Source: Edaphochlamys debaryana
Lineage: Eukaryota > Chlorophyta > Chlorophyceae > Chlamydomonadales
NCBI GenBank assembly: GCA_016858145.1
Contig: JAEHOE010000240.1
Location: 19,665 to 83,664 of the forward strand
Reading direction: 5' to 3'
DNA: 64,000 nucleotides
Both the position numbers and the translations under genes were made by a program. Positions within the stretch are counted from its first letter, which is position 1. Every line of letters starts with the position of its first letter. The notes beneath the pieces were generated by a model. That model worked only from the letters and a program-made list of their open reading frames with translations. It did no database searches and was not told where the DNA came from. Positions 41,301-62,500 of the stretch are shown piece after piece.

Positions 41301-42962
41301 CGTACTGACCCCACATGCCCTGCCCCCGGTGGAGCCGGCACACGGCCTCCGCTGACCGTGCCGTCCGCCTCGCGAGCGGTAGGTCCGAAGGCACGCCGGT
41401 CTCATCCAGCAGCGGCGGCAGCACGCCACCACCCTCAATGTACAGCATGCCTTGGTAAGCGCCGTGCCAGAGCCCCACCGTGACCGCTACGATGCGAATG
41501 TGCAGGTCCTCCCGGTCCTGGCACGTGCGCTCGTACGCGCGGCAGAGCGCGGTCCGCTCGGCCTCGTTGAGCCTCAGCTCGCCCTCACCGCCGGGCCTCA
41601 AGCCCGCCTGCTCCCACAGCGTCTCGAGCATCGCCGCCCGCAGCTCCGCCACCTGCAAACCCGTGAGAGGTCATGTCAATACCTGAGAGCACAGCAACCA
41701 ATTGCAGCGCGTTTAACTTTATATCCCAACCCACATCGCCCCCCAGCAGCGCCGCCACCCACCTCGTGATCCCCCAGGGCCTCGCCCAGCGCTTCGGCAG
41801 CCTCGGCGGCCCCAGGGCGGGGGTCGTTCCGGAGAGCAATGCCCGGCTGCCAAAAGCTCGACAGCGCGACCAGGAAGTTCCAGGCCGGGGCGCTGCAGTT
41901 CAACGGCTCGAGGGCCTCGGGCACGGCGACGGCGCAGCGAGGGGCCTGGCCCTTCATTAACATAAACTGAACCCCCGGGCACGTGAGGATGGCCCTCGCT
42001 GCCGCCGCCGCCAGGCCCGACTCCCGGAGCGCCTCTGCCAGAGCGGGCACAGGCTCTGGCAGGGGCTGCGTGCGGCCCGCAGGGGTCTTGTCGCAGCCCG
42101 CAGGGGCCCTGCCGCAGCCTTCGACGTGTTTGTCGATCAGCAGCATGACGGTGCTGAAGGCCTGGGAGGCCGCGAGCGAGAGCCGAGCGCAGGCCTTTGC
42201 GCAGCCCGGGGCCGTGGGGCGGGGGCTCCGTGTGGCCCCCACCAGGGCCTGCGTGCCCGGCAGCGCCGTGTGCCGAGCCAGGTCCGCCATGGCCCGTGCG
42301 GCCTGGGCCAGGGCCGTCAGCAGGGCGGGGTCCAGCAGGGCGGCCGCGTGGGGGGCGGTGGCGGCCCAGTCCTGGACGGACCGGGCCGTGCAGAGCGCCG
42401 CCAGGCACAGGCTGAGCGCCGTGCTGGCTGCGTCGCTGGCCGCACAGGCTGAGTCAGCGTTGTTGCACACGGCCCAGGCGGTGGTGGCGGGGTTGGAGGC
42501 GGTGGCGGTGCGGGCGAGGAGGGCGCGCAGGGTGCGCAGGAGCCAGGCCGCTACGCCCGACTGCCGGGCGCCGGTCAGCCACTGCAGCCGGGCGGCTGCA
42601 GCCTCGTCGTTCAGGACCTTTGTGGGTACGTACCAGGCCTCCTCGTAGCTTAGTGGCTTCGCGAGTGCAAGCAGCGTGCGCCTGGCGTCCTGAAAGGCGT
42701 CGGTCCTATGATGCAAAGCGGACGGAGGGGGCGAGAGCAGGGGGGTATGCGTCGGGGGGGTGGTAAGCGACCACGGCGACCGGCGTGGGGATGCCCGGCG
42801 CGCGACTTGCTGAAACGCTTTGACATCCCAAGCGACCGACCTGAGCCGAACCTCGCGCTGAGGCGGCTGCCACAGGCTGCGCTCGACGTAGATGTTGCAC
42901 AGCCGATCGGCACAGCGCATATACACGCGCCAGGCATCCTCAAGCGCCTGCAGCGTGACCAT
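38320..42962 (-). CDS. MYND-type zinc-finger protein with a probable frameshift, six exons
   Basis: Exons: 42841-42962, 41763-42705, 41269-41652, 40837-40986, 40539-40647, 38320-40425 (TAG). The long Ala/Leu-rich helical body is unrecognised. The C-terminus is a clear MYND finger: CGAPGCG, LKRCGGCRAVRYCGAACQR, AHWRMGHKDECGAM. MYND fingers bind Pro-rich partners; the cellular role is unknown. Two frames must be joined in the last exon near 39,750-39,840: the upstream frame (RWDPPANSRAAPGPGP) ends at TAG 39,746, while the downstream frame (VAPTAVGSGGRPGD) carries on to the finger. The inverted copy at 43.4-45.4 kb is continuous across this point, so a 1-nt insertion or equivalent is likely. The first exon is uncertain: ATG at 42,962 has an in-frame stop shortly before it and the donor GTCGGT is weak. 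Confidence 0.78.
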
Positions 42963-43363
42963 TAGGTCGAGCCACTATGTGTGATGCGCGCAGCTATCGT
43001 GGAAAGAACTAGCCCGGAGCGAGGAACGTCGGCACTTGCACGCCGCTGTGCGCTCTCGGACGCCACATTTTAAGCAATCCTGGACCTGAGCATTGATTTG
43101 CGTGCAGCCTATTCGGTGTCTTGACCTGGCGCGCGTACGTAAGCAAAAGCTGTTGCCCGCTGTCATCCTGAGGCCGCGCCAACATTTCGCGCTCTGTACA
43201 TGGATAGAAGCAGTAAGCCCCAACCTGAACTCATTGTCATAGGCACGCTGATGTCTCGCCCGAAACCTGGTCGGACACTAGGTGCTTGAGGATGCCGACC
43301 TCGCGACCTGGGGCTAGGTTTCTCCACGAAAGCTGCCATAATCAAACAAAGCAGCGTTTCCTG
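42963..43363. other. Spacer at the centre of the inverted MYND duplication
   Basis: About 400 bp separate the two inverted copies. Homology of the arms begins almost exactly at the ATG (atggt[c/t]acgctgcaggcgc) on both sides. Nothing recognisable lies between, and no target-site duplication is evident. Confidence 0.6.
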
Positions 43364-45434
43364 ATGGTTACGCTGCAGGCGCTTGAGGATGCCTGGCGCG
43401 TGTACATGCGCTGTGCCGATCGGCTGCGCAACATCGGTGGAGCGCAGCTCCTGTAGCAGCCGCCTCAGCGCGAGGTTCGGCTCAGGTCGGAAGCTTGGGA
43501 TGTCACAGCTTCAGAGCATGGCGCGCGCCGGGCATCCTCACGCCCCACGCAGGTCGCTTACCAACCCCCCGACGCATACCCCCGTGCTCTTGCCCCCTTC
43601 ACTTGGCAACACAGGACCGACGCAATCCAGGACGCCAGGCGCACCCCGCTTGCACTCGCGAAGCCACTAAGCAACGAGGAGGCCTGGTACGTACCCACAA
43701 AGACCTGCTGGCGCCCGTGGGGCCTGGCGGGGCCCGCCCGGGCTCGGGCTTGGGCCTGCTGGGCCTGGGCCTGGGCGATGCGGGGGGCCTGGCGGTGACA
43801 GTTACTCAGCGGGCGCTGGCGCTGGCCGGGCGGCTGGAGGCGGGGGGCGACCGCAGAGCTGGAGGCTGCGACGAAGGGGGTTCCGCTCGGGACCGTTGCG
43901 GACGAGGATGGGGAGTCCGCCGCTGCAGCGGTGCCGCCTCCGGCGAGCATCCGTGAGGGGCCCCCGCAGCCCTCCCACGCAGCGGCTCTGCAGCACAGTG
44001 TGGCGGCGGTGACCACCTGTCTCGCACTCCTGAGGCAGCACCGCACAAGGTGGGACCCGCCGGCCAACAGCGTTGGTGCACCGGTCGCCGAGCCCCCCAA
44101 CCCCAACCCAGACGCATTACCGGCAGGTGGAGGAGGACCGGCCGACACGGCAGGAGCGGCCGACGGAGGGGCATCCGCCACCGGCCCAGCGGCCGATGCC
44201 CCACACGTCGATGCCACGTTCTCGCCCGCCGCAGCGGGCGACTCCACCCCAAAGGGACATGGCTCCACCACAGCCTGTGCACCTGCCCCCGAGGCCCTGC
44301 CGGTGCCCCGCCCGGGTCCCCGAGCGTGGGGCCCCCTGGCTTCCGAGCTGGAGGCTCTGATGCTGCAGGCGGGCAGCCGGCTGGCGGCGCTCGCGGCGGC
44401 GGCGGCGGCGGCGGACGTTGGCGGGCCCAGCGGGCCGGCGAGTGCTCGCCTGCTCGGCAACTGCCTCGCCCACATCAATTTGCTGTGCCGTACCGATGAG
44501 TACGGCAGCCCCTTGCTGGAGGCCCGGCTCCTCGCCCTGCAGCCGCACCGGCTGGCGGCGGCGGCATGCAAGCTGCTGTGCGCGTGGCGGGACCCCGCCG
44601 CCGCCACCCCTCAGGGTGCTGCAGGGGCCGCCAGCACGGATGGGGATCAAAAGGCGCCTGCTCGGCCTGTGCCCACAGCCGCGTGGCCCACCGTTCTGCC
44701 ACGGCTGTCGATGGCCCTCGCAAAGATGGCCGCCCACTCCCTACACCTCGCCTCGCTTGTCCGGAGCTGGTTGCTGCCGCCGCACGGAGACTCTGGCGGA
44801 GTCACCGCTGCCTGCTGCTATGAGGCGGAGGCGGCGGCGCGGGGCTGCCTGGCGCAGGCGTGGCCCCTCGCCATGCGCTCGCGGGCGGCCGCGGCCGCGA
44901 GGGCCGAGGGCAGCTCTAGGGCTGGCCCTGCTTCGAGCGGCGCTGGAGGGCGGCGGCGGTGACAAGAGCGGCCGGGGCAGCAGCGGTGACGGCAGCGGCG
45001 ACGGCAGCTGCCCATCCGCCGAGTGCTTCCGCCAGGCCGCCGCAACCCTATTGCAGTGGCTAGCGGCCAGGGAGCGAGGCGAGCACGGGGCCCCGACCGC
45101 GCTGGTCGCACACCTCCTCAACCCCAGGCGAGGCGAGGACAGCGGTTTGGTAACCGCAAAGGAGGCAGCGGAGGCGACCGTGGTGGCTGCGCCGCTGCCG
45201 CCGCTCCTGGCGCCGCCGGCTGCGGGCCGGGTGCTGACTCAGCTGCTGGTGTGCGGGGCCCCAGGGTGTGGTACGTTCGGGGGTCGTAGTGAGGCGGAGC
45301 TCCCGCTCAAGCGCTGCGGCGGCTGCCGGGCGGTGCGGTACTAGCGGTACTGCGGGGCCGCCTGCCAGCGGGCGCACTGGTGGATGGGGCACAAGGGCGA
45401 GTGGGGGGCGATGGCGGCAGCGCTGGTTCTGCGA
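43364..45434 (+). pseudogene. Inverted, internally deleted pseudogene copy of the MYND gene
   Basis: On the plus strand it repeats the start of the MYND gene (43,364 to ~43,702, including intron 1), then jumps at cacaaag/acctgctgg from exon 2 directly into the last exon, deleting ~2.4 kb of the parent. Lesions: a stop soon after the start (NIGGAQLL then TAG), a frameshift near 44,900-44,940 (EGSSRAGPASSGAGG), a 9-bp insertion creating TAG inside the finger (cggtac tag cggtac, ~45,338-45,350), and loss of a finger cysteine (KDEC to KGEW). Retained introns show that it arose by DNA duplication, not retroposition. Confidence 0.9.
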
Positions 45435-45640: not shown

Positions 45641-46632
45641 AAGCTGTAGCCCTCATACCCCAACCATTTCCGTAGTAAGCAAGCAGATGCTGAATAACCG
45701 GTCTTTGTACACGATCTCTTAAGGGCTGTAGGCTACCGGTTGTTAGCCCCTTCGGCTAACCCACCCGGCCATGGGATCCGGGTTGAACCAGAGTGTGACC
45801 TTCACCCCTGCACAGGCCTGTGCGGACCTGTATCAGCCTGCTAGACGTACCCGGCACAGCTCTACACCGTCAACAGCAACAGCATGCCGGTTACTCTAGC
45901 GTAGCCGTTCTCAGCCGCATCCCCGACTATATCTGCTGCGCATACCGCTCCGTGTAGTGCTGGATAGCCCTGTTGCTAGTGTACTGCATGGAGGCTATGC
46001 CCCCCGACCCCCCGCTACTGGACGAGAGCCAGTGCGTGGGAATGACTGATGACCTCATTGTCGTGTTCCACCCCCTATACCCAAAGGGGCCCTAAAGCCG
46101 GCTGCTTATGCTGCTTAACTGTGTGGCGAAATACCAACTGTACCGCTGTCGGCTGTGTCCGCACACGCACCGTCCAGCCGCCGACGCCTTCAGCCAGCTA
46201 GCTGTCTTCCGGACGTCGGGCGGATCTGCCTGCCTGTTCACGGCCACCCCAAGTATCCCAACCAAGGCTCGCCCCAGCACGCACACCAAACCACCCTCAC
46301 GCATGCACGCACACACACGCTTCCGCCCCCGGCAGCCCCCGCCCCCCTAGACGTGCCGCGCACTGCCCCGGCTCCCGGCGGGAAGCTTCCCAGCGGCTCC
46401 CTTCGCTTCCACGTTGGGCCCGCCCGGGCCCGGGCTCGGGCCCGCGTCTCGGACCTGCCTGGGCCCGGCGGCCCGCCGTGCGTGGCTGCGTGCTATGCCC
46501 CCCGTGCTGGCCATGCTGAGGCGCTTGCCGCGCAGCACGGAAACCTCAACGACCACAACTGTGCTCCCCCAGCACAGCACAGCACAGCACAGCGCGGCAC
46601 CACACTCCCCTCGGTCCCCCTGTCCGCTCCCC
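45641..46632. other. Gene-poor region, possible retroelement relics, (CAGCA)n at 46,568-46,597
   Basis: No gene could be supported. A short plus frame near 46,108 (LLNCVAKYQLYRCRLCPHTH) might be a worn retroelement tail, but evidence is thin. The microsatellite cagcacagcacagcacagca lies at ~46,572. This region includes the 3' flank of the P450 gene. Confidence 0.4.
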
Positions 46633-46794
46633 TCAGTCCCGGGGTTGGAAGCGCAGCCTCAGGCGCCTCAGCTTGGTGATCACAGCCACCTGGGGGGGGA
46701 AGGGGGAAGAAAAGGGGAGGAAGGCTTGTGTGTTTTGGCACGGTCACGTGTCGAAGGGCAGCCTCAGGCGCCACAGCTTGGTAACCACAGCCAC
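46633..46794 (-). repeat. Two tandem alternative terminal exons of the P450 gene
   Basis: The proximal copy 46,744-46,794 encodes VAVVTKLWRLRLPFDT-stop. The distal copy 46,633-46,689 encodes VAVITKLRRLRLRFQPRD-stop. Both have acceptor AG after a C-rich tract and an in-phase stop. They are separated by a G-rich spacer and the motif tgttttggcacggtcacgtg. Confidence 0.85.
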
Positions 46795-49700
46795 CTGGTG
46801 GGGAAAGGGGAGGAGGGAGAGTGAGGGACTGAAGGGGGACAGGAAGGAGAGCCCGTGGGGACACCTAGCCTTCCGCGGGCTTTAGTCCGGGTAAGCCCGA
46901 GGTAAGCTGGGTTACGCTGCTGGAACCCTATCACGACCTCGCCCGCCCTTTCCATAACTCGTGTGCATTTCCCCCGCGAGAGTCCGTGCCCAGGCGACGT
47001 TCACGGGCGACGACGAACACTCTGTAAGCTGCTCGCAGGTCTGCGTAGTCCGCGGAACACGCCCTACGCCACAACCAAGCGCTTCGCTTCGTTGATGTCT
47101 TCTACCCCTGCCCTCTGTTGCCCCCGCGCTGGCTGGCCTCCACGCCACACGCCCCCCACCCCCCCACCCGGCCCCGTTTGGCCCCACCTCCATGTAGCCT
47201 CTCCCTCCTCCCCCCATCAACCCCCCCCCCACACACACACACACACGCACACGCACACATGGGTCGGGCTTCGGACTCCCAGGGCTTTCGGTTCCGTATC
47301 TAAGACCGGCCGGCTACCGGTAATCACCGCGCCTACGCTCTTCCTGGCCTTTACACGAGCAGCCCTGAACACACACGCACACACGTTGGCCCCCCACCTG
47401 CGTGAGCACCGCCGTCTCCTCGGCACTGGGCCCGTCCGGGCCCATGTCGGGCCCCAGCCGTACGACGTAGCGGGACAGCAGCAGGCCTACCAGGGACCGC
47501 AGCACGGTGTGACCGAAGTTCTGAAAGGGGGGGGGGCACCAATATTTGGGCATGGGGCAAAGGGAAGGGGGAGAGGGGGGGGAGGGGGTGATGTTCGGAG
47601 CATTGGAGAGCGGGGGGAGGGGGGTGAAGAGGGAAACAGAGCGGGGGAACGGAAGGGGAGAGGAGGGCACCATGGGATGCAGCATAGGGTTGGCTACGAG
47701 GAGTGCATGACAGGACCATGCGGCCTGGCAGTCAACGGCTTCCCGCGGTCAACGCCCCTGGCCTCAAACCAGACCCCTCGTATCCCGTGCCGTTCCTACC
47801 AACCTACCTCACTCGGCCCCCGTCCCCTGGCCCCCACCCCCCGTCCTCCACCCCCCGTATCCTGTCCTCCGTCCCGTTCGGTTTCCCCCAACGCCGCCAT
47901 CCATCCCTTGCCGTCGCCTCCTACGTTCCGTTCCTCCATCCCGTTCGTTTCCCCCCAACGCTGCCAATACCCCATGCCGTGGGTCCCTCCCCCGCCTGGC
48001 TCACGCAGTTCCCGATCCCCACCGGGCAGACAGGTCCGAAGAAAACTCCGTCCCCCGCCCCACCCGAGCCCGCCCCTATCCCTCCAGCCCGCCATCCGCA
48101 CCTGCCCCACGCAGTTCTTGGGCCCAGCGCCGAACGGCAGGAAGCGCCGCGGCGGCTCCTCGGACCGGGGACCGCCCTCGGCCGCCCCCACTCCCGCCGC
48201 CTCCTGAGGCCCTCCGTCCACCCCCTGGCGGGCGAAGGCGCAGCGGGGGTCCTCCAGCCAGCGGTCGGGCCTGAGAGGGGGTGACAGGGCATCGAGGAGG
48301 AAACAAAATAAAGAACGAGAAAAGATTGAAAATCTAAAAACAAATGTTCTGCAGGTTGCAGGTTCGCTATGGGGCGTTGGGGCTCTGCCGCTTCAATGGC
48401 GCAGCGGGGGTCCTCGCTGCGCCTCAGCGTCCCCACGGCCTACACGAGCCGCCCTTCACACACCCCACCCCAATGCCCCCGATCATCCAACGAGCGAGGC
48501 CGAAACACCCCGCCCGGTAGGATACACCCCGACCACCCTGGCACCCTGGCTGCGAAAAACTCCCACAATCAGCACCCCTCACCTGAAGGCCTCCGGGTCC
48601 TCCCACTTTGCCCCTGACTTCCGCGGGATCCCCCTGATACTCCCCTGCAGAGTACACACGTCCTCCCTCCGCAGACTCTGTGTGGTTGCACGCTCCTAGA
48701 CCCTCCCCATAAAACCCCTCTCTCGCTCTCGCTCTACCTGCCCCCCCCCCCCCCACACACACATACACACCTGAACGCCTCCGGGTCCCCCCAGTTGTCC
48801 GCCCCCATGTGCAGCGCATAGGTCATGGGCCAGACGGTGGTGCGGGGGGGCAGCACCAGGCCCCCCAGGCGCACGGGCTGGTCCCCCACCTGCCTGTCAG
48901 GGGGTAGGGGGGGGCAGACATAGGGGCAAGGGGGAGGGGGGGAGGGGGGGCAGGTCATGGGCCAGACGGTGGTGCGGGGGGGCAGCACCAGGCCCCCCAG
49001 GCGCACGGGCTGGTCCCCCACCTGCCTGTCAGGGGGTAGGGGGGGGGCAGACATAGGGGCAAGGGGGAGGGGGGGAGGGGGGGCAGGTCATGGGCCAGAC
49101 GGTGGTGCGTGGGGGCAGCACCAGGCCCCCCAGGCGCACGGGCTGGTCCCCCCCCTGCCTGTCAGGGGGGTAGGGGGGGGCAGACATAGGGGCAATGGGG
49201 AGGGGGGGAGGGGGGGCAGGTCATGGGCCAGACGGTGGTGCGCGGGGGCAGCACCAGGCCCCCCAGGCGCACGGGCTGGTCCCCCACCTGCCTGTCAGGG
49301 GGTAGGCGGGGGGGGCAGACATAGGGGCAAGCGGGAGGGGGGGAGGGGGGGCAGGTCATGGGCCAGACGGTGGTGCGCGGGGGCAGCACCAGGCCCCCCA
49401 GGCGCACGGGCTGGTCCCCCACCTGCCTGTCAGGGGGGGGGGGGGCAGACATAGGGGCAAGGGGGGAAACGAGGAATCTGAGCCCTCTCCCAGTGAGCAG
49501 GTTGCAGGCCTCTGCGGCCCTCCGCGCCTTGCCCTTTCGTAAGTTACCCTTCCGGGGAGGCCGCCTCCCACCCGCGCTCCTCCCCTCCCCGCTCACCTCT
49601 CTGCAGCCAGGGCTGTGGGGGAGTACATGCGGAGGACCTCGTTGATCTGAGGGGAGGGAGGTGGGAGTGGGATGGCAAAGTTGGAGCGGGAAACACATCG

Positions 49701-52700
49701 AGGCCCCTCTGCGCCCTGGCGCCTCCCGCAGTCCATCCCAGGCCCAGGCCCAGGTCCATCCCAGGTCCATCCCAGGCCCGACTTGAGGCCCGACCCCATG
49801 GCTCCACCAGCCACCAGAAGCCCAGCCCCGCGTCCCAGGACTTTCTCAGCCTTTACCCCCCCGCCCCCCCCGTCGCGCCCCCCCCCCTCCTGTCCCCCCT
49901 CTCCACCCCCTCGTCCCCTCCCCCTTCCCAACCCCCCCCTCCCCCCCTTACGAAGGCGTTGAGGCGGGGCAGCCTCGCCAGCTCCTCCGGCCCCGGGCAG
50001 CGACCAGGGTCCAACCGGAGGAGGCGGCGGGGGCCCCTGTTGGCAGCCCCCTCCTGCCCCTCCCCATCCCCCTCCCCATACTCCGCCCCCCCTTCCTCCT
50101 CCCTCTCCGCCTCCAGCACCGCCCCCCGCCCGAACACGCCAGCTTCCCGCAGCTCCCGCGCCACCGCCTCCTGCTCCGAGGGTTGCATGGCGGCGGCGTA
50201 CCTGTCAGGGGGGGAAGGGGGGGAGAGGGGAGATGGAGAGGGGGAGGTGGTGGTGAGCTGAGGAAGCCCAGGGACCCACCCACCTGCCTTCACCCCGCTC
50301 CTATACCCCTCACATGCACCAGCCGGTGGAGGGCTCTGCCCCCCTTGCCCCCCCCCCCTCGTGCCTCTCCCCTCCCCCTCTTCCTTCTTGCCTCCTCCCC
50401 TGTCCCCCCCTTGCCTGCCCCCCCTCTCACATGCACCAGCCGGTGGAGGGCTCTGCCCCCCTTGCCCCTCCCCTTGCCTCCCCCTTGCCCTCCTCTTGCC
50501 TCCCCCCTCTTGCCTCCCCCCCCTCTCACATGCACCAGCCGGTGGAGGGCTCTGCCCCCCTTGCCCCCCCCTTGCCTCCCCCTTGCCCTCCTCTTGCCTC
50601 CCCCCTCTTGCCTCCCCGCCCCTCTCACATGCACCAGCCGGTGGAGGGCTCTGCCCCCCTTGCCCCCCCCCTTGCCTCCCCCTTGCCCTCCTCTTGCCTC
50701 CCCCCTCTTGCCTCCCCGCCCCTCTCACATGCACCAGCCGGTGGAGGAGGTGGTGGTGTCGAAACCAGCGGTGGTGTACATGCCCACTGGGGGGGAGGGG
50801 GGGGAGAGGGTGGGGGGGAGGGCGTGTGTGTTTCGCTACGCACGTGGTACCCTGCCTGGTGCCTGCCCAGGCCCTTCCCCACACGTCCCCCTTCTCCACC
50901 CACCCGGCCCCTCACCTACCCCCGCCCCCCACGTCCCCCCTCACCCTCGGGGTGCAGCTGCTTGGGCGTGAGGGGCAGCAGCCGGTGGAGTGCCGTACCA
51001 CACACACACACGGTCTCCCCCCTCTCCCCTTCCCCCCCCAGTCCCCCGTCCCCCCTCACCCTCGGGGTGCAGCTGCTTGGGCGTGAGCGGGCGGCCGGTG
51101 CGGGGGTGGCGCAGGCGGTGCAGGCAGGCCCACAGGAGCGTGTTGCCGGGCTCGGGCTCGGGCCTGGGGGTAAACAGTTGGTGGTTGGTTGGTTGGTTGG
51201 TTGGTTGGTTGGTTGGTTCGAGGGGCCGGTACTCGCAGCACGAGTTGGAGAAAGGAAGGGGGCAGCATGAGGCGGCATACACCCACCCAGCCACCCCACC
51301 GGGCACCCGCCCAGGGGGCCCACCTGCTGAGCACACAAGGAGGCCCCCGCCCGTTCCCACCCCCACCTCCCCACCCCCCCACCCCCCAGCCCCCCCACCC
51401 CCCAGCCGCCCCGCCTGCTGAGTACGCGTGTGGCTGTGTTCGTGTGGAAGGCCACGATGGACTTGAGCGCTGTACGGCAGCGGGCCACGTGCTGAGGGGG
51501 GGTGGGGGGAGACAAGGGGGGGGGTCAGACATGCGTGTTTCGCTTTTGCAGAGCGAGGACATGGGGTCTGCAACCCGGCTGGCGCTGCAACCACTCCAGC
51601 ACTTGGCTCGAAGCCACTGAGCGAAGCCTACGAAGGTACAGGCATACCTACGAAGGAAAAGGCATACAAAGGTAAAAGCTGGTTATAACCCCATATGCCA
51701 CCACTCCAGCATATGCCCTCATACCTTGGACAGCAGTGGCGCCAGGGGTGTGGCGTAGAAGGCCTTGCGGATGGGGTCCGTGATCTGGGCGTTGGCCTCG
51801 GTCTGGGGGGGAGGAGGCAAGAGGGGGCAGACATAGGGAGAGGGCAGACATAGGGAGGGGGCAGACATAGGGAGGGGGCAGACGTAAGGAGAGGGCAGAC
51901 ATAGAGAGGGGGCAGAGGTAAGGAGAGGGCAGACATAGGGAGGGGGCAGAGGTAAGGAGAGGGCAGACAAAGGGAGGAGGCAGAGGTGGGAAAGAAGGCC
52001 CTCCCGACGCCAGAAACCAGCACTGCCACACGCGCCCGTTGCGGGATGTGGGCTGAGCAGGGGAAGAGGTTCCCTGCGTCCCTCTTCAGTCACCCCGCCC
52101 ATACACCGCACCATGAGTAGCGGAAGCGGGTCCCGGTGCTCCCCCCTAACCCCCCGTAATCCCCCCCCCCTTCACCCCCGTTCACCCCACCCCCCTCCCC
52201 CACCATGAGCAGGGTGATGTCGGCGGCCAGCGGCAGCCGTCCCTCCGTCCCACGTGGCCGTGCCAAACACACACACACACACCTTCCCCCCCTCCCCCCC
52301 TCCCCCCTCCCCCCTCTCCCACCATGAGCAGGGTGATGTTGGTGGCCAGGGTGTCGAAGCCGGGGACCTGGGTGGCGTCGGGGACCTGCGGCAGGGGGGG
52401 GGGCAAGGGGGGAAGGGCGGGGAGGCGTAAGTGTGTTTTGGCACGGTCACGTGGGGCGGAGAGACGGCGTCTGGGTGGCGTCGGGGACCTGCGGCAGGGG
52501 GGGGGGCAAGGGGGGAAGGGCGGGGAGGCGTACATGTGCTTTGGCACGGTCACGTGGGGCGGAGAGACGGCGTCTGGGTGGCGTCGGGGACCTGCGGCAG
52601 GGGGGGGGGCAAGGGGGGAAGGGCGGGGAGGCGTACATGTGCTTTGGCACGGTCACGTGGGGCGGAGAGACGGCTTCTGGGTGGCGTCGGGGACCTGCGG

Positions 52701-55700
52701 CAGGGGGGGGGCAAGGGGGGAAGGGCGGGCAGGCGTAAGTGTGTTTTGGCACGGTCACGTGGGGCGGAGAGACGGCTTCTGGGTGGCGTCGGGGACCTGC
52801 GGCAGGGGGGGGGCAAGGGGGGGAAGGGCGGGGAGGCGTACGTGTGTTTTGGCACGGTCACGTGGGGCGGAGAGACGGCTTCTGGGTGGCGTCGGGGACC
52901 TGCGGCAGGTGGGGGGGGGCAAGGGGGGAAGGGCGGGGAGGCGTACGTGTGTTTTGGCACGGTCACGTGGGGCGGAGAGACGGCTTCTGGGTGGCGTCGG
53001 GGACCTGCGGCAGGGGGGGGGCAAGGGGGGAAGGGCGGGTAGGCGTACGTGTGTTTTGGCACGGTCACGTGGGGCGGAGAGGACGGCTTCTGGGTGGCGT
53101 CGGGGACCTGCGGCAGGTGGGGGGGGGCAAGGGGGGAAGGGGGGGGGAGGCGTACGTGTGTTTTGGCACGGTCACGTGGGGCGGAGAGACGGCTTCTGGG
53201 TGGCGTCGGGGACCTGCGGCAGGGGGGGGGGGGCAAAGGGGGGAAGGGCGGGGAGGCGTACGTGTGTTTTGGCACGGTCACGTGGGGCGGAGAGACGGCT
53301 TCTGGGTGGCGTCGGGGACCTGCGGCAGGGGGGGGGGCAAGGGGGGAAGGGCAGGGAGGCGTACGTGTGTTTTGGCACGGTCACGTGGGGCGGAGAGACG
53401 GCTTCTGGGTGGCGTCGGGGACCTGCGGCAGGGGGGGGGGGGGGGCAAGGGGGGAAGGGCGGGGAGGCGTACGTGTGTTTTGGCACGGTCACGTGGGGCG
53501 GAGAGACGGCGTCTGGGTGGCGTCGGGGACCTGCGGCAGGGGGGGGGGCAAGGGGGGAAGGGCGGGGAGGCGTACATGTGCTTTGGCACGGTCACGTGGG
53601 GCGGAGAGACGGCGTCTGGGTGGCGTCGGGGACCTGCGGCAGGGGGGGGGCAAGGGGGGAAGGGCGGGGAGGCGTAACATGTGCTTTGGCACGGTCACGT
53701 GGGGCGGAGAGACGGCTTCTGGGTGGCGTCGGGGACCTGCGGCAGGGGGGGGGCAAGGGGGGAAGGGCGGGCAGGCGTAAGTGTGTTTTGGCACGGTCAC
53801 GTGGGGGCGGAGAGACGGCTTCTGGGTGGCGTCGGGGACCTGCGGCAGGGGGGGGGCAAGGGGGGAAGGGCGGGAGGCGTACGTGTGTTTTGGCACGGTC
53901 ACGTGGGGCGGGAGAGACGGCTTCTGGGTGGCGTCGGGGACCTGCGGCAGGGGGGGGGCAAGGGGGGAAGGGCGGGTAGGCGTACGTGTGTTTTGGCACG
54001 GTCACGTGGGGCGGAGAGACGGCTTCTGGGTGGCGTCGGGGACCTGCGGCAGGTGGGGGGGGGCAAGGGGGGAAGGGCGGGGAGGCGTACGTGTGATTTG
54101 GCACGGTCACGTGGGGCGGAGAGACGGCTTCTGGGTGGCGTCGGGGACCTGCGGCAGGGGGGGGGGGGCAAGGGGGGAAGGGCGGGGAGGCGTACGTGTG
54201 TTTTGGCACGGTCACGTGGGGCGGAGAGACGGCTTCTGGGTGGCGTCGGGGACCTGCGGCAGGGGGGGGGGGCAAGGGGGGAAGGGCGGGGAGGCGTACG
54301 TGTGTTTTGGCACGGTCACGTGGGGCGGAAGAGACGGCTTCTGGGTGGCGTCGGGGACCTGCGGCAGGGGGGGGGGGGGGCAAGGGGGGAAGGGCGGGGG
54401 AGGCGTACGTGTGTTTTGGCACGGTCACGTGGGGCGGAGAGACGGCTTCTGGGTGGCCGTCGGGGACCTGCGGCAGGTGGGGGGGGGGCAAGGGGGGAAG
54501 GGCGGGGAGGCCGTACGTGTGTTTTGGCCGGTCACGTGGGGCGGAGAGACGGCTTCTGGGTGGCGTCGGGGACCTGCGGCAGGGGGGGGGCAAGGGGGGA
54601 AGGGCGGGGAGGCGTACGTGTGTTTTGGCACGGTCACGTGGGGCGGAGAGAGACGGCTTCTGGGTGGCGTCGGGGACCTGCGGCAGGTGGGGGGGGGCAA
54701 GGGGGGAAGGGCGGGGAGGCGTACGTGTGTTTTGGCACGGTCACGTGGGGCGGAGAGACGGCTTCTGGGTGGCGTCGGGGACCTGCGGCAGGGGGGGGGG
54801 GCAAGGGGGGAAGGGCGGGGAGGCGTACGTGTGTGTTTGGCACGGTCACGTGGGGCGGAGAGACGGCTTCTGGGTGGCGTCGGGGACCCTGCGGCAGGGG
54901 GGGGGCAAGGGGGGAAGGGCGGGGAGGCGTACGTGTGTTTTGGCACGGTCACTTGGGGGCGGAGCGACGGCTTCTGGGTGGCGTCGGGGACCTGCGGCAG
55001 GGGGGGGGGGGCAAGGGGGGAAGGGGCGGGGAGGCGTACGTGTGTTTTGGCACGGTCACGTGGGGGCGGAGAGACGGCTTCTGGGTGGCGTCGGGGACCT
55101 GCGGCAGGGGGGGGGGGGGGGCAAGGGGGGAAGGGCGGGGAGGCGTACGTGTGTTTTGGCACGGTCACGTGGGGCGGAGAGACGGCTTCTGGGTGGCGTC
55201 GGGGACCTGCGGCAGGGGGGGGGCAAGGGGGGAAGGGCGGGGAGGCGTACATGTGCTTTGGCACGGTCACGTGGGGCGGAGAGACGGCGTCTGGGTGGCG
55301 TCGGGGACCTGCGGCAGGGGGGGGGGGGGCAAGGGGGGAAGGGCGGGGAGGCGTACGTGTGTTTTGGCACGGTCACGTGGGGCGGAGAGACGGCTTCTGG
55401 GTGGCGTCGGGGACCTGCGGCAGGGGGGGGGGTAGGGGGGTGATCGAGGGCCGGGTGGCAGGCGAAGTGAGAGGAAGGGCTGGCAAATCTCAGGGCATGC
55501 TGCAGAAGCTGCTAGCCGATACTATACTACACTATACCAAACTGATACCGCTGCTGAAGCTGCGAGCCGATACCGCTGCCACCGCCGTGCCCGGGCCTCT
55601 GTGCGCCTCCCGCCCGCCTAACCCCCACAGACCCACCTCGAAGAGGCCCTCCAGGGTCGCCCGGAGCATGAGCCTCTGTGGGAATGGGTTGGATTGGGGT

Positions 55701-58700
55701 CCCAAAGTCGGGCACCTGAGACCGCTTAACCCGCGCCGCAATGCATTCAGACGGACCCACCTTCTCCCGCAGCCCCTACCACTGGTCGTCCCAGCTGGTT
55801 CCTCCAATTCCAGCGGCTCCGCAAACCCACACGCACCCCCTCCTCCGCAGCAGCGGCTCCGCCTCAGCCCAGCCCCTCCAACCCCCGAAGCTATCGACCG
55901 GGAGTAGCCGTGACCGTGCCAAAACACACACGCCCTCTCCCCCCCTTCCCCCCACCTGCAGCAAAGGCTCCGCCTCCACCCAGCCCAGGGCCGCCTGCTC
56001 CCGGTCGATAGCTTCCAGCAGCTCCCCGGCACTGGACAGCACTCCCCCGTAGTAGCGCCTTTGGGGGCAGGGGGGAGAGGGGGAAAAGGGGGGAGGAGAG
56101 GGCGTGTGTGTTTTGGCACGGTCACGGCTGCTCCTGGTCGATAGCTGGGGGGGGGGCTGGGTGGAGGCGGAGCCGCTGCTGCGGGTGGGGGGTTGCGTGT
56201 GGGTTTGCGGGGCCGCTGGGAGTCCTTGGCGAGTTGCCCCCCGGTACCTCCACAAACGCACTGACATTGGCGGCTTGCTTATGGTTCACTCGTTGCCAAG
56301 CACTGGCATTAACAGTGGATAAGACGGCCCTCGGCCCCACACGTGCTTGGGCTCTTCACACTCCCACAACCCCCTTCACCCCGTCTCACACGCCCTCGCC
56401 TGACCTTGGCCATGGAGAACGCGGCCCCTCCCCCTTTTGCACGTGCGCAACCCCCCTGACCCACATTCACCCCACCCCCCTCCGGACTTGAGCCGGCTGC
56501 CCCTCCCCTTTCACCCCATCTGTGTCCCCCGTTCCCCCTCTACCCCCTCACCTGACGTTGGCCATGGAGAAAGCGGCACGTCCCCCCTTCGCACGTGTGC
56601 ACCCCCTGACTAGAGCCCCCCTAACCCCCCTAACCCCCCTCACCCCCCCTCTACCCCCTCACCTGACGTTGGCCATGGAGAAAGCGGCACGTCCCCCTTC
56701 GCACGTGTGCACCCCCTGACTAGAGCCCCCCTAACCCCCCTAACCCCCTCACCCCCCCTCTACCCCCCCACCTGACGTTGGCCATGGAGAAAGCGGCACG
56801 TCCCCCTTCGCACGTGTGCACCCCCTGACTAGAGCCCCCCTAACCCCCCTAACCCCCTCACCCCCCCTCTACCCCCCCACCTGACGTTGGCCATGGAGAA
56901 GGCGGGGGCGGTGGCCTTTCGGGTGTTGCGCCAGGCCTCCTCATCCAGGGTGCCAAACATGCTGGGGGGGGGGGGTGCAAGGCGGGGCATAGGACGAGGA
57001 TTGCGGGTAGGAGGGAAACGCGTGCCGTAGGGATGGACGCGAAGTGAGGGCCGGCGCGCGCAAAGGCGGGGGCGGCATCCCCAGGGGTTAGGCACACATA
57101 AAGGATTGAGGGGGGGGGGGGGTAAGGCAGGTTGCGGGTCGAGGGTGCGGGTGGCAAGGACGAGGGGCCTCCCCGTCCACGACGCCAGGCCGACATGCTG
57201 GGGAGAAGGCGAGGGCTCTGGAGCAGAGTGAGGCCAGTTTGTGGCGGTTGGGGCAGACGCCAGCCGCGCACGTAAGTGTCGCGGAGGATTGCTAGCGGCG
57301 ACCCAGCCCCGCTCGCCGGCCCTCTGCTCACCTCACCACGCCGGGGCCTCCGCACACCTGCGGCCGTGAGGCACGTGGGAAGCAGGGGGCGGCAGGGGGC
57401 ACGTGAAAGGAAGGGTCCAGAGCAGCCGGCATCCCCCGGCATCATTCACGCCCCCGAGCAACATATCCACTGCACCCGATGATGTCTTACAATCCTTCAC
57501 CACCACCACCACCCACACACACTCGCACCGCGCCCACGACTCCCAGGCTCATGCGAGCAGCCCTTCACACACACTCGCAACAATCCCGCCCCCATTCCTC
57601 ACCACCCTCCCCCACACCATCCTTCCCCACACCATCCTTCCCCACCCCATTCCGCTTCTCTGGGCTACACACGTGTTGCTAAAACGAAAGGGTCAGCACA
57701 CACCCCACACACCTCGTCAATGAGTGTGTAGTTCGCGGTGCGGCCGGGGATGTGGGTCAGCGCCTGTGCGGCCAGGGCGGGGTCGGCCACCACCACGGTC
57801 CACTCGGTGAGGACGCTGGGGGAGGGGGGTGGGGTGAGATGGAAGGGGGTGGTGTGGGGGGGGGGAGGGAGGGGGGGGAGGGGGGGGGTTCCACTCGGTG
57901 CGGATGCTGGGGAGGGAGGTGGGTGTTGGGGAGGGGGTGAGGAGTGTGGCGTCAAGGCGGGTAGACTGTGGGTGGGAGGGGTGGGGGGCTCTGCGAAGCG
58001 GGGCGCTGCTCAGTGCTGGGTACAGCACCCAGATCCCTGGTATGCGGTGGCCGCTCAGGGCGGGAGGAGGGGGTTGACCTCTGCGCATGGAGGCACCGGA
58101 GCGGGGTGAGGGTCTTTTCAGGGCTGGGCTGAGGCGCCGGGGATCATGAGGAGGGTGGTGGTTGGGGGGAGGGGAAGGAGGTGGATGGGAGGGGCGGAGG
58201 GGCTCTGCCCGCAGCTCTCGCCGGTTTGCTGCAAGGCAGGCGGGGGCTCAGGTGCGGCGCCGGGCCCAGCTCGCTAGGACCGAAGCACTGCGCGGCTGCG
58301 GCACGCACCGCACGCGGAAGGCCTTGCCGTACTTGTTGGCCCACTGCAGGATGACTGCGGCATGCGGTGTTTGAGAATGGGCGGGGACAGGCGGGAAAGG
58401 TGGGTCAAAACACACTGGCTGCCGAGTCGCGGTCGTGCCATGGCTTTCTTTCTTAGCCCGGCTAATGCTTTCATATTGCATCCGAGCAATTGCGCCCATA
58501 GCTGACCGCGGTGGTAGTCGGGGCGGAGCAGGTCGGGCACATGGCCCAAGAGCCAGCTACTTGCGGGAGGCGACGGCAGCTTGCTTAGGTCGCCATGGTC
58601 GGCCATAAAGTATTTGAACAGCTTGGAGAAGCCTAGGCCCAGCAACACTCCCGCGAGGTTGAGCAAAACACACGCGATGGGCGTCCAGACGCCCAGCGGC

Positions 58701-58732
58701 CCCTTTGACGTGTAGTAGTAGCTCCAATCCAT
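46633..58732 (-). CDS. Cytochrome P450, 18 exons, about 600 residues
   Basis: Exons: 58507-58732, 58309-58354, 57713-57815, 57332-57357 (26 nt), 56881-56961, 55956-56058, 55637-55675, 52323-52385, 51725-51802, ~51,38x-51,491 (donor unclear), 51060-51163, 50729-50786, 49952-50201, 49597-49646, 48771-48893, 48102-48270, 47398-47520, then a terminal exon at 46744-46794 or 46633-46689. Start MDWSYYYTSKG with a hydrophobic anchor (ACVLLNLAGVLLGLGF), then the LPSPP hinge. P450 hallmarks: EEAWRNTRKATAPAFS (helix C), AGFDTTTSSTGW (helix I oxygen-activation motif), NEVLRMYSP (E-x-x-R), FRPDRW, and the haem loop FGAGPKNCVGQ with the Cys thiolate ligand. Role: ER-type NADPH-dependent mono-oxygenase; clan and substrate not assignable. 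Exon 13 has an acidic, low-complexity insert (GAEYGEGDGEGQEG). The 12-kb length comes almost entirely from repeat-filled introns. Confidence 0.92.
48590..48620 (-). repeat. Copy of P450 exon-15 3' edge and donor
   Basis: The minus strand reads GGACCCGGAGGCCTTCAG then GTGAGG, duplicating the true exon-15 end (DPEAF, donor GTGTGT at 48,770) about 175 bp into the following intron. Confidence 0.75.
48890..49460 (-). repeat. Tandem array of P450 exon-15 5' edges (four extra copies, decoy acceptors)
   Basis: A ~125-bp unit holds acceptor CCTGACAG, the first ~75 nt of exon 15 (QVGDQPVRLGGLVLPPRTTV) and a G-rich spacer with ggcagacataggggcaag. The true exon is the last unit (48,893), and four more precede it in the transcript, up to ~49,440. 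The copied exon pieces remain open (PRTTVWPMTCPP). Confidence 0.92.
50305..50735 (-). repeat. Tandem copies of P450 exon-12 3' edge (four decoy donors)
   Basis: ctctcacatgcaccagccgg recurs at ~50,306, 50,424, 50,523, 50,624 and 50,723 (the true exon end). On the minus strand each is STGWCM followed by donor GTGAGA. The spacers are pyrimidine-rich blocks (ccttgcctcccccttgccct) on the plus strand. Confidence 0.92.
50940..51085 (-). repeat. Duplicate of P450 exon-11 3' edge and donor
   Basis: cctcaccctcggggtgcagc plus tgcttgggcgtgag occurs at ~50,939 and again at ~51,055 (the true exon-11 end PLTPKQLHPEG with donor GTGAGG). Confidence 0.85.
51181..51222. repeat. (GGTT)n microsatellite next to P450 exon 11
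   Basis: About nine ggtt units lie just upstream (transcript sense) of the exon-11 acceptor. An equivalent (CAAC/CAAC)n tract lies beside armadillo-gene exon B at 62,900-62,940. Confidence 0.9.
51810..51990. repeat. Short tandem repeat of the CAGACATAGGGAG element in a P450 intron
   Basis: Units gggagagggcagacata and gggagggggcagacata repeat about eight times next to the exon-9 acceptor (51,802). The core cagacatagg is the same element found singly in other introns. Confidence 0.9.
52185..52240 (-). repeat. Duplicate of P450 exon-8 3' edge and donor
   Basis: cccaccatgagcagggtgat at ~52,198 repeats the true exon-8 end at ~52,319 (ITLLM with donor GTGGGA) inside the following intron. Confidence 0.8.
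52386..55437 (-). repeat. ~30-unit, ~104-bp minisatellite in P450 intron 7, each unit a decoy 3' splice site
   Basis: Every unit on the minus strand contains a C/T tract (CTTCCCCCCTTGCCCCCC), CTGCCGCAG, the first ~19 nt of exon 8 (GTCCCCGACGCCACCCA), then gaagccgtctctccgcccca and cgtgaccgtgccaaaacaca. About 30 acceptor/exon cores can be counted, the last being the true exon-8 start at 52,385. Units differ mainly in the length of the G/C run and in two variants (cgtctggg/cttctggg; acatgtgcttt/acgtgtgtttt). On the plus strand it is open in all three frames, which explains long Gly/Arg-rich frames there; these are not genes. Confidence 0.95.
55810..56219. repeat. ~145-bp inverted repeat flanking P450 exon 6
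   Basis: Arm 1 is 55,810-55,955 and arm 2 56,066-56,219. The reverse complement of arm 2 matches arm 1 almost throughout (cagcggc[t/c]ccgcaaaccc, gcagcagcggctccgcct, gctatcgacc, gtgaccgtgccaaaacacac, acgccctctcc). Exon 6 (55,956-56,058) sits in the loop, and a piece of that exon (GAAGCTATCGACCGGGAG) is itself part of the arms. Confidence 0.88.
56400..56900 (-). repeat. Tandem copies of P450 exon-5 3' edge (decoy donors)
   Basis: cacctgacgttggccatgga with gaaagcggcacgtcccccttcg repeats at ~56,549, 56,661 and 56,769 beside the true exon end (56,881; SMANVR). A worn copy is at ~56,400. On the minus strand each presents ATGGCCAACGTCAG followed by GTG(A/G)GG. Confidence 0.9.
57880..57915 (-). repeat. 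Decoy copy of P450 exon-3 acceptor
   Basis: The minus strand reads CCCCAG CATCCGCACCGAGTGG, a near copy of the exon-3 start (CGTCCTCACCGAGTGG) at 57,815, about 85 bp upstream in intron 2. Confidence 0.75.
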
Positions 58733-59386
58733 CTTGTCTCAATTCTATGTAAGGAGCGGTGCAACGCGGGTGTATGCGGCGGACATGGTGCGACGCGCGG
58801 GCCTAGTGAAGCACACGATCTGGCGGTTGCTCGAAGGGGTGAGGCGGATGGCGTGTTTGGAGAAGCCTGCTCTGCCCACCCGTCTTGTAGACTTGACCAG
58901 AGGGCCTCCAAGCTTGTCGTGTCAACTGTGCAGGACTTCAGGGGCACGGCGCAGACGGGGGTAGGGGGCCTGCCAGGTAGCCAGGCTGGCTTTGCACACA
59001 ACTCCTCACAACGTCCCGGACAAAATGTGAGGGGTTGGGGAACCAAGACGTGAGCCGTTCCCGCAAGCGGCCTCTCAGGCACCGGCGGAGAGGGTTTCGG
59101 CTCCGCACGCGCTCTGCCGGCCTCCTCCCTCCTCCCTTCAAGTAGCTTTGAACAGCCCTACCTCCGCTCCTCACTCGCTTGCCTCCCCTGCCGAGGCAAG
59201 GCCTGCCATGCCCTCCACAGGACGCGGTCTGTAACCCCGCCTCACATGCAGTAACAGGCGCCAGCACCCACTCAGGGCCAAAACCACTCACGCCCCAAAA
59301 CCCGGACCTGCCGAAGCGTACCTCAGCTCCGTGCACACCGTACCGCAACCCATCCCGGCAGCGCTGGGCTGCACCCGTCAATATCT
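58733..59386. other. Intergenic region upstream of the P450 gene
   Basis: About 650 bp between the P450 ATG and the end of the armadillo-like gene. No supported gene or RNA. It must contain the P450 promoter and the 3' end of the neighbour. Confidence 0.5.
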
Positions 59387-59595
59387 TTACTCAAGGGAAC
59401 AGCCAAAACCCAATGCAGCAGGATCCCAACCACTCCCGCATGCTCCTGCACCCGAAGTATCCCGTCGTCCCAAATCCCCCCAAACACAAACACAAAACCA
59501 CAACCCCGCCTGGACCCATCTCCCCATCAGCGCAAGTGCTCCGACCTGCCGTACGCCTTGAAACGTACTGCCGCGATCTGTATCGTACAGCCGTA

Positions 59596-62500
59596 CTACA
59601 TCTCGTCCTTGACGCTCTTGGCCGAGGCCTTGGCCCCCTGCGCCGCTGCGGCCCCCTTGGCCTTGGCCCCCCCCTCCTTGGCAGCGCCCGAGGTGGTTCC
59701 CTGCGAGGGCCCCTTGGCCGCCTCTCCCTCCTTGGACCCCCCCCTTCTTGGCCCCCCCTTCCTTCTTGGCCGCACCCTCCTTGGCCGCTGCTCCCTTGGG
59801 GATGCCCCCCTTGATCACCCCCTCCTTGGATCCTGGATCCTCCTTGTTCTTGGGCGGCAGTTTGACTTTCTTGATCCCAACGGATTTGGTCCAATCCTCG
59901 GCAAGCTTGGCCGCATGCTCCGGGATCTTGGGCCTCTTGATCCCTTTGGCCTGCTCATGATCCGTGTTGGATCCACTGTCGTACCGCTTGGCCTCCGCCT
60001 TTGCCTTTTCCGTCGCCGCCGCCGCCTCGCGCACCTTGGCCGCCGCCGCCTCCGCCGCCGCCTCCCGCGCGGCCTCCTCCGCCAGGGCTGACTCCAGCTT
60101 GTCGAGATCAATGCCCGCGGTGCCGTACATCTCGGCAACCTGAAAGGCGGGCGGGAGGCGCGGGTCACAAAGGGATCACAGTTAATCTATGTGCGCATTG
60201 CCGTATATCTCAGCCACCTGATCAGAGGGGATCACACATGGGGTTTCATGGGATTACCCGACCAATTGGTGCATGCAGAAGGAAGCCGGCCGCCCGCTCA
60301 CCCGACACACCCGACCGGTCCCACACGCATTCCCATCCCCGACAACACACCTGGACCGGACCGAACTGGATTGACCCGAGCACCCCGATCCTGATCAAAA
60401 AGTTCGCATGTCCGCAAGCACAGCAATCCGACCGCACCTTGGGGTCCCTCTCCAGCAGCCTCTAACGCTCCATGACACCCGCCGCGCCCCTCCGTGCAAT
60501 ACACACACGTCTTCTCCCCCCTATCCCCCCCCCCGCCCCCCCCCCCCCCCGCACCTTGGGGTCCCGCTCCAGCAGCCTCAGCACCCTCAGCGCCGCCCGC
60601 TGCTCCTTGGACGACCCCCGCGCAAAGTACATGTGCGCGAGCGGCTCCAGCACCCCCGCCGCCACCGCCTGGGCGTCGTACTTGCCGTCATCGGCTGCAC
60701 GTGGAGGGGGGGACGGGGGGGTAAACAGGGTGTGTTTTGCGCGTGTGCGTGTGGAGAGGGGGGGTATGTGGGCAAGGGGTTCCAGCACCCCCGCCGCCAC
60801 CGCCTGGGCGTCGTACTTGCCGTCATCGGCTGCACGTGGAGGGGGGGACGGGGGGGTAAACAGGGTGTGTTTTGCGCGTGTGCGTGTGGAGAGGGGGGGC
60901 ATGTGGGCAAGGGGCTCCAGCACCCCCGCCGCCACCGCCTGGGCGTCGTACTTGCCGTCATCGGCTGGGGTTGGGGGTTGGGGGGAGAGAGGGGGGGTGA
61001 ACAGGGTGTGTTTTTCTGTCCGTGTGCCTGGTCGTACTTGCCGTCATCGGCTGGGGTTGGGGGGTGGGGGTTGGGGGAGGGGTAGAGAAGGGAGGAAAGG
61101 CCGACGGGGATAGGCGGGAGGACGGGGGAAGGGGGGCGGGGGCGTTTGGCGCCTCCCACCGCTCTCTGCGCGGGCCTTCCCCGCCCTTGCCTGCCCTGGT
61201 GCGTTCCCTCCCTCGCGGGACACTGCTCCTCCCCCCCCCCCCCCGCTCACACAGGATGGGCACCAGGGTTGGGGAAGGAGGGGGAAAGGGTGGGATTGGG
61301 GCTCCCTCCCTCCCTCCCTCCCCCAACCCAGATTCCTTGCCGATTCCCCCCCCCCCCCTCTCTTCTCCCCGCTCACACAATATGGGCACCAGCGCCGCAG
61401 CCGCCGTGATGCGGACCTGCGGCACAGAGGGAGGTGGGGTGGGGGGTGGGGGGTGGGGGGGGGGGGGGGTGGGGGGTGGGGGGTGGGGGGTGGGGGGTGG
61501 GGGGGTGGGGGCGGCGGCGTGAGAAGGGTTTTTAGGCCGTCAAAGCAGGCGTGCCTCCTAATCGCTAACCGTGACGCAGCCGCCGTGGTGCGGGCCTGCG
61601 GCAGGGGGGCGGGGGGGAAGGATTCTGCGGCAGTCAATGCACGGGGCCCCCCTCCCTGCAGTCCCCCACCTGCACCTCCGTGGCCACTCATGCCGTCGGC
61701 TCTCCCCCCCTCCTGCCGTTCCTCCTTCACCCTTGACCCCATCTCCCCCTCCCCTCTTTCCTTTCCTTTCCACACCATCACCTTTCCCTTCCGCCCCCCC
61801 CCCTCACCTGGGCCATGAGCCCCGTCTGCCCCGTGTGGGTGGTCAGGGCGGCCGCCAGCCCCTCCACCGCCCCCCCCTCCACCACCTCCCCACGGAGGGT
61901 GGGGTCCAGCGCCAGGAGGGCCACCACCGCTGCGGCGGTGCGCTGGGACTGCACCACCCAGGCGTGGGATGCGACATCAGATTCTGTGAGGGGGTAGGAA
62001 GGCAAGAGGGGACAGACATAAAGGGAAGGGGGGGAGGGGAAGGCGGGTGGGATGCTGCGTCTACACCAACCAGGCGTGGGATGCCACGTCAGATTCTGGG
62101 GGAAAGGGTTTAGGGGGAGGGGGCAAGGGGGGCAGACATGAAGGGAGGGGGGCACGAGGAGGAGGGGGAGAGGTGAGAAGGTGCGCTGGGACTGCACCAC
62201 CTAGGCATGGGCGGCCACGTCGGATTCTGGGGGGAGGGGACAGCAAGGTGGCAAGGGAGAGGGGGTGGGTGCAAGGGGGGGCAGACATCAAGGGAGGGGA
62301 TGGCAGGGTACCAACACATGGAGCGGATGAGGGTAGGGCCTTTAATGTTAAACCACGAGTCCATTCCCCCATCGCCCACTACGATTCCACTCCCGGCACA
62401 CTCCCGTGCCACGTCTCCAGTTCCCCTTCTCCTCTCTCCCCCCCTCTCCCTCCTTGCGTTCCCCTCCCCCTGTCTGCCTCCGTTCCCCGCCCCCCCTGCC

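Follow-up and report, generated by a model that had tools for sequence, protein, structure and literature searches.

Thirty copies of one intron–exon junction, all carrying the same local signals, stand in a row in intron 7 of a cytochrome P450 gene of the volvocalean green alga Edaphochlamys debaryana, and the question that this locus raises is whether such a row regulates the gene or only lengthens its intron. The gene, HYH03_018824, lies in the window analysed here, a stretch of 64,000 nucleotides (nt) of contig JAEHOE010000240.1 (assembly GCA_016858145.1, positions 19,665 to 83,664); all coordinates below are those of the window. The locus touches upon two open questions, namely how introns grow and how the spliceosome finds the true site among identical ones, and the 30 junction copies, spread over 3 kb, provide a test of position against exon context and against the order of transcription. 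The array is probably a passive mirage, i.e., a minisatellite whose unit happens to span the intron–exon junction, and it looks like an extreme case of the local copying of exon edges into introns, a mainly passive growth of DNA.

The junction array of intron 7

The P450 gene comprises 18 exons on the minus strand (58732–46633), assembled into a single open frame of 591 codons that stays intact across the gene despite the array. A search of the protein database matched the 591 aa translation to P0001 (549 aa) with 100% identity and to P0002 with 90% identity, over 93% of the query, and the product has a Pfam p450 match (E 3.1e-49). According to the available sections of the genome report (PMC8226300), the annotation was made with BRAKER and stranded RNA-seq mapped with STAR, giving 20,450 transcripts and 19,228 genes, and the median intron length in this species is 198 bp. 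A scan of positions 46000–64000 with Rfam yielded zero families at the gathering threshold.

As delimited by the exon assembly, intron 7 is 3251 bp long (55636–52386, minus strand). Tandem Repeats Finder reported a single array in this intron at 52368–55440, with a period of 103, 29.4 copies and 95% matches. Counted by junctions, there are 30 copies, namely the true acceptor at 52385 and 29 decoy 3' splice junctions (52386–55437, minus strand), the first exon-copy bases of which run from 55414 down to 52488. Each unit is 102–109 bp long and contains a C-tract, TGCCGCAG and the opening 18 nt of exon 8 (GTCCCCGACGCCACCCAG); TGCCGCAG is unbroken in all 29 units, and the exon copies show no substitutions and only two one-base insertions, one of them a G placed directly after the AG of decoy 54888. 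Tandem copies that hold an intron end together with an exon edge are the mark of the repeats known as mirages, and the array consists of 29 such copies. From the donor of intron 7 it is 222 nt to the first decoy and 3251 nt to the true acceptor; the intron-side match of this first decoy extends over only 26 nt, the other ~60 nt of the unit being a filler that contains a recurring module, designated E and described below.

Exon assembly and protein alignment place exon 8 at 52323–52385 on the minus strand (63 nt, phase 0 at both ends). The VPDA residues at its start are invariant in six aligned volvocine proteins, including the product of HYH03_018824, and both annotated isoforms, P0001 and P0002, join exon 7 to position 52385. 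A CACCCAG at 52368, which as the real acceptor would make the 18 nt intronic, was rejected on account of the same invariant residues. The acceptors were scored with a matrix built from 22 other introns of two genes, intron 7 being left out; the true site received a score of 14.3 and the decoys scores of 10.9–17.4, so that the true site ranks 11th of 30, tied with four decoys.

When decoy use was modelled in silico, a TGA followed after exactly 13 codons (VPDATQ[K/T]PSLRPT) in 20 of the 29 cases, and the other nine decoys were read through 48 to 361 codons before a stop. It is precisely in these nine units that a small indel precedes the TGA; the indels may be sequencing errors, in which case all 29 decoys would stop after 13 codons. 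Provided that the array undergoes no further splicing, a premature stop precedes exon 8 for 29 of 29 decoys. The earlier note on this DNA had correctly recognised the array, the general plan of its unit and the true acceptor, but it counted thirty decoys where there are 29 and the true junction, gave ~19 nt for the exon part of the unit, which is 18 nt, and extended to any decoy the TGA within about 13 codons that holds for 20 of them.

Units 16–19 and 26–29 have variants in common (an A>C variant, for example, occurs in units 2, 18, 19, 28 and 29), and the mean differences between units are lowest at lags of 9–12. Both features fit a multi-unit expansion in blocks of about ten units, and the similarity of such blocks, as read from the repeat itself, suggests that the array has expanded in the past.

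Copies of exon edges in other introns

The 24-nt exon edges of the P450 gene and of its neighbour were compared with their own adjacent introns, non-adjacent introns serving as the control. The neighbouring gene, labelled G2, is HYH03_018825 (63906–59596); its match, P0015, is marked partial and is 100% identical over the 380-residue query. The threshold score of 11 was set after a first look at the scores, and other thresholds were also computed. At a score of at least 11, 16 of the 46 edges are copied in the adjacent intron against 4 of 924 control pairs, and at a score of at least 14 the figures are 13/46 and 0/924. The copies occupy 15 of the 23 introns and derive from eight donor and eight acceptor edges, i.e., both 5' and 3' boundaries are affected in one genome, as in mirages; no inverted edge copy reached the threshold at any of the 46 edges. 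This signal is strongest at the junction itself (35%) and weakens farther away, to 6% at distances above 60 nt. The nearest copy lies 88–135 nt from the true junction for 14 of the 16 edges and 179 and 188 nt from it for the remaining two, and the copied exon stretch measures 16 to 74 nt.

Together with a third gene, HYH03_018819 (16 exons mapped between 31834 and 25469, the mapped coding sequence translating exactly to P0019), 18 of 76 edges are copied against 19 of 2672 control pairs, or 23 of 3800 in a length-matched control, and 17 of 38 introns bear copies. Such introns are longer in the three genes (median 520 versus 278 bp, P 0.0005), which is expected if junction copying lengthens introns; longer introns, though, also give more room for copies. 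The copies in 17 of 38 introns, on the donor and acceptor sides alike, point to a mutational process and not to a device peculiar to the P450 gene, and they support the alternative that the earlier note had also allowed, a minisatellite that captured a splice junction.

Six arrays of the window combine a score of at least 100 with a period above 80 bp, and each of them crosses a splice junction of the P450 gene or its neighbour. The five beyond intron 7, with periods of 87–135 bp, lie between 48820 and 63557, all on the minus strand. In the P450 gene they are found at the acceptor of exon 15 (48820–49465, 133 bp period, four decoys and the true junction; P0002 is modelled through these decoys), the donor of exon 12 (50314–50747, 99 bp period, four decoys) and the donor of exon 5 (56400–56905, 109 bp period, four decoys); in HYH03_018825, they are found at the acceptors of exon 6 (60630–61050, 135 bp period, three decoys) and exon 2 (63029–63557, 87 and 121 bp periods, four decoys). 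Single decoys accompany the acceptor of exon 18 (46690–46794) and the donors of exon 8 (52204–52322) and exon 11 (50945–51059) of the P450 gene, and the acceptor junction of the last exon of HYH03_018819 is copied in its intron 15 (25679–25824), again on the minus strand in each case.

Two further places were left out of the edge-copy counts. Intron 10 of the P450 gene begins with GC (51414), and about 90 nt farther downstream, at 51324, the end of exon 10 is repeated with a GT after it (region 51324–51415); this could be either the real donor of intron 10 or an edge copy below the threshold (score 8). In an unmodelled gene on the plus strand, the acceptor junction AG|GCCGCCTTCGC occurs twice, 135 nt apart (33759–33969). 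The latter is among the distant repeats listed, which were at least 22 bp long, had a dinucleotide entropy of at least 2.9 and were drawn from the best 60 distant pairs. The same listed repeats include tandem segments with a 3006-bp shift at 1–12436 (1–4592 versus 3007–7595, 97%) together with diverged copies, representing a repetitive gene or gene cluster, and a large inverted duplication at 38339–45433, 88–91% identical, around a MYND-finger reading frame (38323–39816). Intron 7 of HYH03_018819 holds a 16-bp minisatellite of 12.8 copies (29108–29312) that spans no junction.

Origin of the array and competing explanations

The probable passive origin of the array may be pictured in two steps. 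First, the last intron bases and the opening 18 nt of exon 8 would have been duplicated through a break or a template switch where intron 7 ends in a C-rich stretch, a filler of ~60 nt containing module E being placed at the joint. The outermost AG would have been kept and the older junction turned intronic, a change presumably close to neutral because the outermost AG still made normal mRNA. The unit of ~103 bp would then have been multiplied to 30 copies via slippage or unequal exchange. The array would thereby act as passive intron growth, with the spliceosome normally reaching 52385 and an occasional use of a decoy giving a message with an early stop.

Several observations weigh against this picture. 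HYH03_018819 shows a much weaker effect, with copies in 2 of 15 introns; at a score of at least 11, 2 of its 30 edges are copied against 13 of 1054 control pairs (P 0.06), and at a score of at least 14, two edges against none in the control (P 0.0007), one of the two having been spotted before the test, so the density of edge copies may be local to the P450 region. The 26-nt junction block contains none of the 11 distinct substitution variants of the array (P 0.027, post hoc), which is a weak hint of constraint; selection on the decoys is not relied on here. Finally, module E is absent upstream of the first decoy, and a simple tandem duplication leaves this filler unexplained. Simple tandem duplication without a filler was tried as a candidate; it fits the arrays at exon 15 and at exon 2 of the neighbouring gene, where the intron-side match at the first copy reaches 41 and 54 nt, respectively, but not the array of intron 7, with its 26 nt.

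According to an alternative, E and a second module, M2, are what is left of mobile or template-borne modules that insert at exon edges and carry a copy of the edge along, the array of intron 7 being one such entry, tandemly amplified; this explanation seems unlikely. A search of the window for the 15-mer of module E (CGTGACCGTGCCAAAACACACACGCC), with up to two mismatches allowed, gave 34 hits where chance predicts 0.17; the array accounts for 28 of these, other introns of the P450 gene and its neighbour account for five, and the last is a weak hit at 13590. E has one orientation in the tails of P450 introns 5 (56112–56126, plus strand), 7 and 17 (46734–46748, plus strand, on the acceptor side), and the reverse orientation in the heads of introns 6 (55909–55923, minus strand) and 8 (52253–52267, minus strand) and of intron 1 of the neighbour (63615–63629, minus strand), where it stands beside a copy of exon 1 of that gene. 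Thus oriented, its C/G-tract side faces the splice site at every occurrence in introns. For M2 (CCCCTATGTCTGCCCCC), 16 matches were counted where 0.08 would be expected; they fall in five introns of the three genes, without exception on the acceptor side. The tail of P450 intron 8 also contains a 17/34-bp array made of the M2 motif (51807–51987).

The flanks of E were compared with the exons of the three genes, and at four of the six loci they matched better than any of 200 shuffles. The most telling case is the start of P450 intron 8, where the E flank finds its best match in exon 1 of the neighbouring gene, 11 kb away (28 of 31 nt, score 25 versus a maximum of 19 in 200 shuffles); material has therefore moved between the two genes along with E, whether by conversion, template switching or mobility. 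At the other two loci the flanks only equalled the best shuffle, E was not found in HYH03_018819, edge copies without E or M2 occur in P450 introns 2, 12 and 15, and the duplicated exon stretch varies in length, unlike a fixed target-site duplication, all of which speaks against entry of modules as the general cause. A broader proposal appears more doubtful still, namely that in E. debaryana an active process lets E and M2, as transferable modules, enter at exon edges with an edge copy, and sometimes with a piece of an exon of another gene, and so lengthen introns by cloning splice sites, up to 29 acceptors in the P450 gene, and that the length of the P450 array and an inverted arm in intron 8 set the level of productive splicing.

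It would be tempting to regard the array as a regulatory device, in which the 29 decoys compete with 52385 and their use leads to nonsense-mediated decay (NMD), the array setting the P450 output. The decoy scores do bracket that of the true site, the first decoy, at 222 nt, is near the median intron length of the species (198 bp in the available part of PMC8226300) while the true site is remote, the stop before exon 8 in all 29 decoys is the premature stop that alternative splicing coupled to NMD calls for, and the junction block is free of substitution variants. The exon 15 array adds a further point, since P0002 could be reconstructed only through its decoys: from exon 14 to decoy acceptor 49426 or 49291 (the same protein results), with exit at 49390 or 49255, then through a second decoy acceptor at 49158, with exit at 49022, to the true acceptor at 48893. 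These junctions may reflect real RNA-seq reads because BRAKER takes introns from RNA-seq, although reads in repeats can be misplaced; such a model would mean that the decoys of this gene are not necessarily inert. Nevertheless, 17 of the 38 introns hold similar copies, on donor as well as acceptor sides, which a dedicated device does not predict, and stops are near-universal for out-of-frame decoys, given that the decoys of other P450 junctions stopped in all but two cases (acceptor 49025 and donor 50945) of the 17 translated. Both annotated isoforms, moreover, splice past the intron 7 array. Regulation by NMD through such a device is possible but improbable.

A similar, slightly lower probability attaches to an RNA hairpin, in which the units pair with an arm in intron 8 and loop out exon 8, the nearest unit winning by proximity and thereby marking the true acceptor, or exon 8 being skipped or circularised. 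The head of intron 8 (52223–52322, minus strand) is complementary in sequence to the array units and forms an inverted arm; exon 8, 63 nt long and in frame, lies between the two partners. The complementarity between the intron 7 tail and the intron 8 head scored 40.5 against a maximum of 36 among 485 non-cognate tail/head pairs, and the flanks of exon 6 gave 53.0, the highest value of all pairs; the flanks of the other 19 of 21 exons were unremarkable. Pairing of an intron head with its own tail was considered as well and is unsupported, as none of the 23 introns exceeded the non-cognate pairs. The predicted energy of the duplex between the true tail and the intron 8 arm is −159.3 versus −97.6 ± 7.2 for 200 shuffled tails, and the predicted fold of the 276-nt stretch around exon 8, which puts this exon in the loop, has an energy of −174.9 versus −134.7 ± 5.8 for 50 shuffles. 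Yet the predicted pairing with the arm is of much the same strength for 28 of the 29 decoys (−149.2 to −172.8) as for the true tail, the first decoy giving −104.9, so that pairing could pick out 52385 only by proximity; one non-cognate tail/head pair reaches the same duplex energy, and the inverted arms may be a mere by-product of template switching. Exon 6 itself lies inside a long inverted repeat (55830–56200) that holds pieces of this exon in both orientations (fold −295.8 versus −190.9 for 30 shuffles).

An assembly or sequencing artefact in the copy number is hardly credible: 15 of the 17 indel variants are confined to one unit and many adjoin C or G runs, in the manner of residual long-read errors, but the substitution variants are common to units in an ordered way, and independent smaller arrays stand at other junctions.

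Comparison with known systems

Introners are intron-generating mobile elements, and they share with the introns described here the presence of short modules common to introns of different genes. Unlike introners, the introns of this window are not alike from end to end, their modules are restricted to one end, and the exon segment that has been duplicated is long and differs from case to case. Near-identical whole introns were not found in the two genes compared in this window, the likeness of some introns being confined to their first or last 100 nt, and in place of a fixed short target-site duplication there is an exon stretch of 16 to 74 nt.

In human duplicated genes, the variation of tandem repeats at boundaries can activate cryptic splice sites and create introns, as stated in the available part of PMC2812944; those repeats differ from the present ones in being coding, in lying in segmental duplications and in comprising ~4 units of 30 bp. 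New introns of Daphnia have internal direct repeats in 55 of 90 cases, which the accessible portion of PMC4202315 ascribes to staggered double-strand breaks, with passive lengthening. A passive trend to longer introns through repeats would be common to Daphnia and E. debaryana, and repeat growth from staggered breaks is, by analogy, a plausible mechanism here too; in the alga, unlike in Daphnia, the repeat takes in the exon edge and the splice site.

The closest counterparts are the amphioxus mirages, tandem repeats across intron/exon boundaries described in the parts available of PMC3087553 (Adh3 and the globin genes BflGb6 and BflGb9) and PMC3902484 (TnC, encoding troponin C, and PGBD5), so in principle the arrangement, which the earlier note took to be undescribed, is known. 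In both organisms, minisatellite-like repeats lie over the 5' or the 3' boundary, the copies contain AG/GT signals, several genes per genome are affected, and the units are of similar size (150–160 bp in the globin genes, 60 and 108 bp in PGBD5). In the available portions of the two amphioxus accounts, nothing near 30 copies is described, and a search of open-licence papers by title found none on junction-spanning arrays in a green alga. Should half of the introns in a region contain duplicates of their own splice junctions, then introns do lengthen by junction duplication in organisms other than lancelets, and E. debaryana lends itself readily to the study of this process. Compared with the mirages as far as those sources describe them, the host is a green alga rather than a lancelet, there are 29 decoys against six and three repeat units in two BflGb6 haplotypes, copies are found in 17 of the 38 introns of three genes, and the fillers E and M2 recur at the joints; what is new is thus the copy number, the algal host, the local density and the recurring filler modules, one of them with a piece of an exon of the neighbouring gene.

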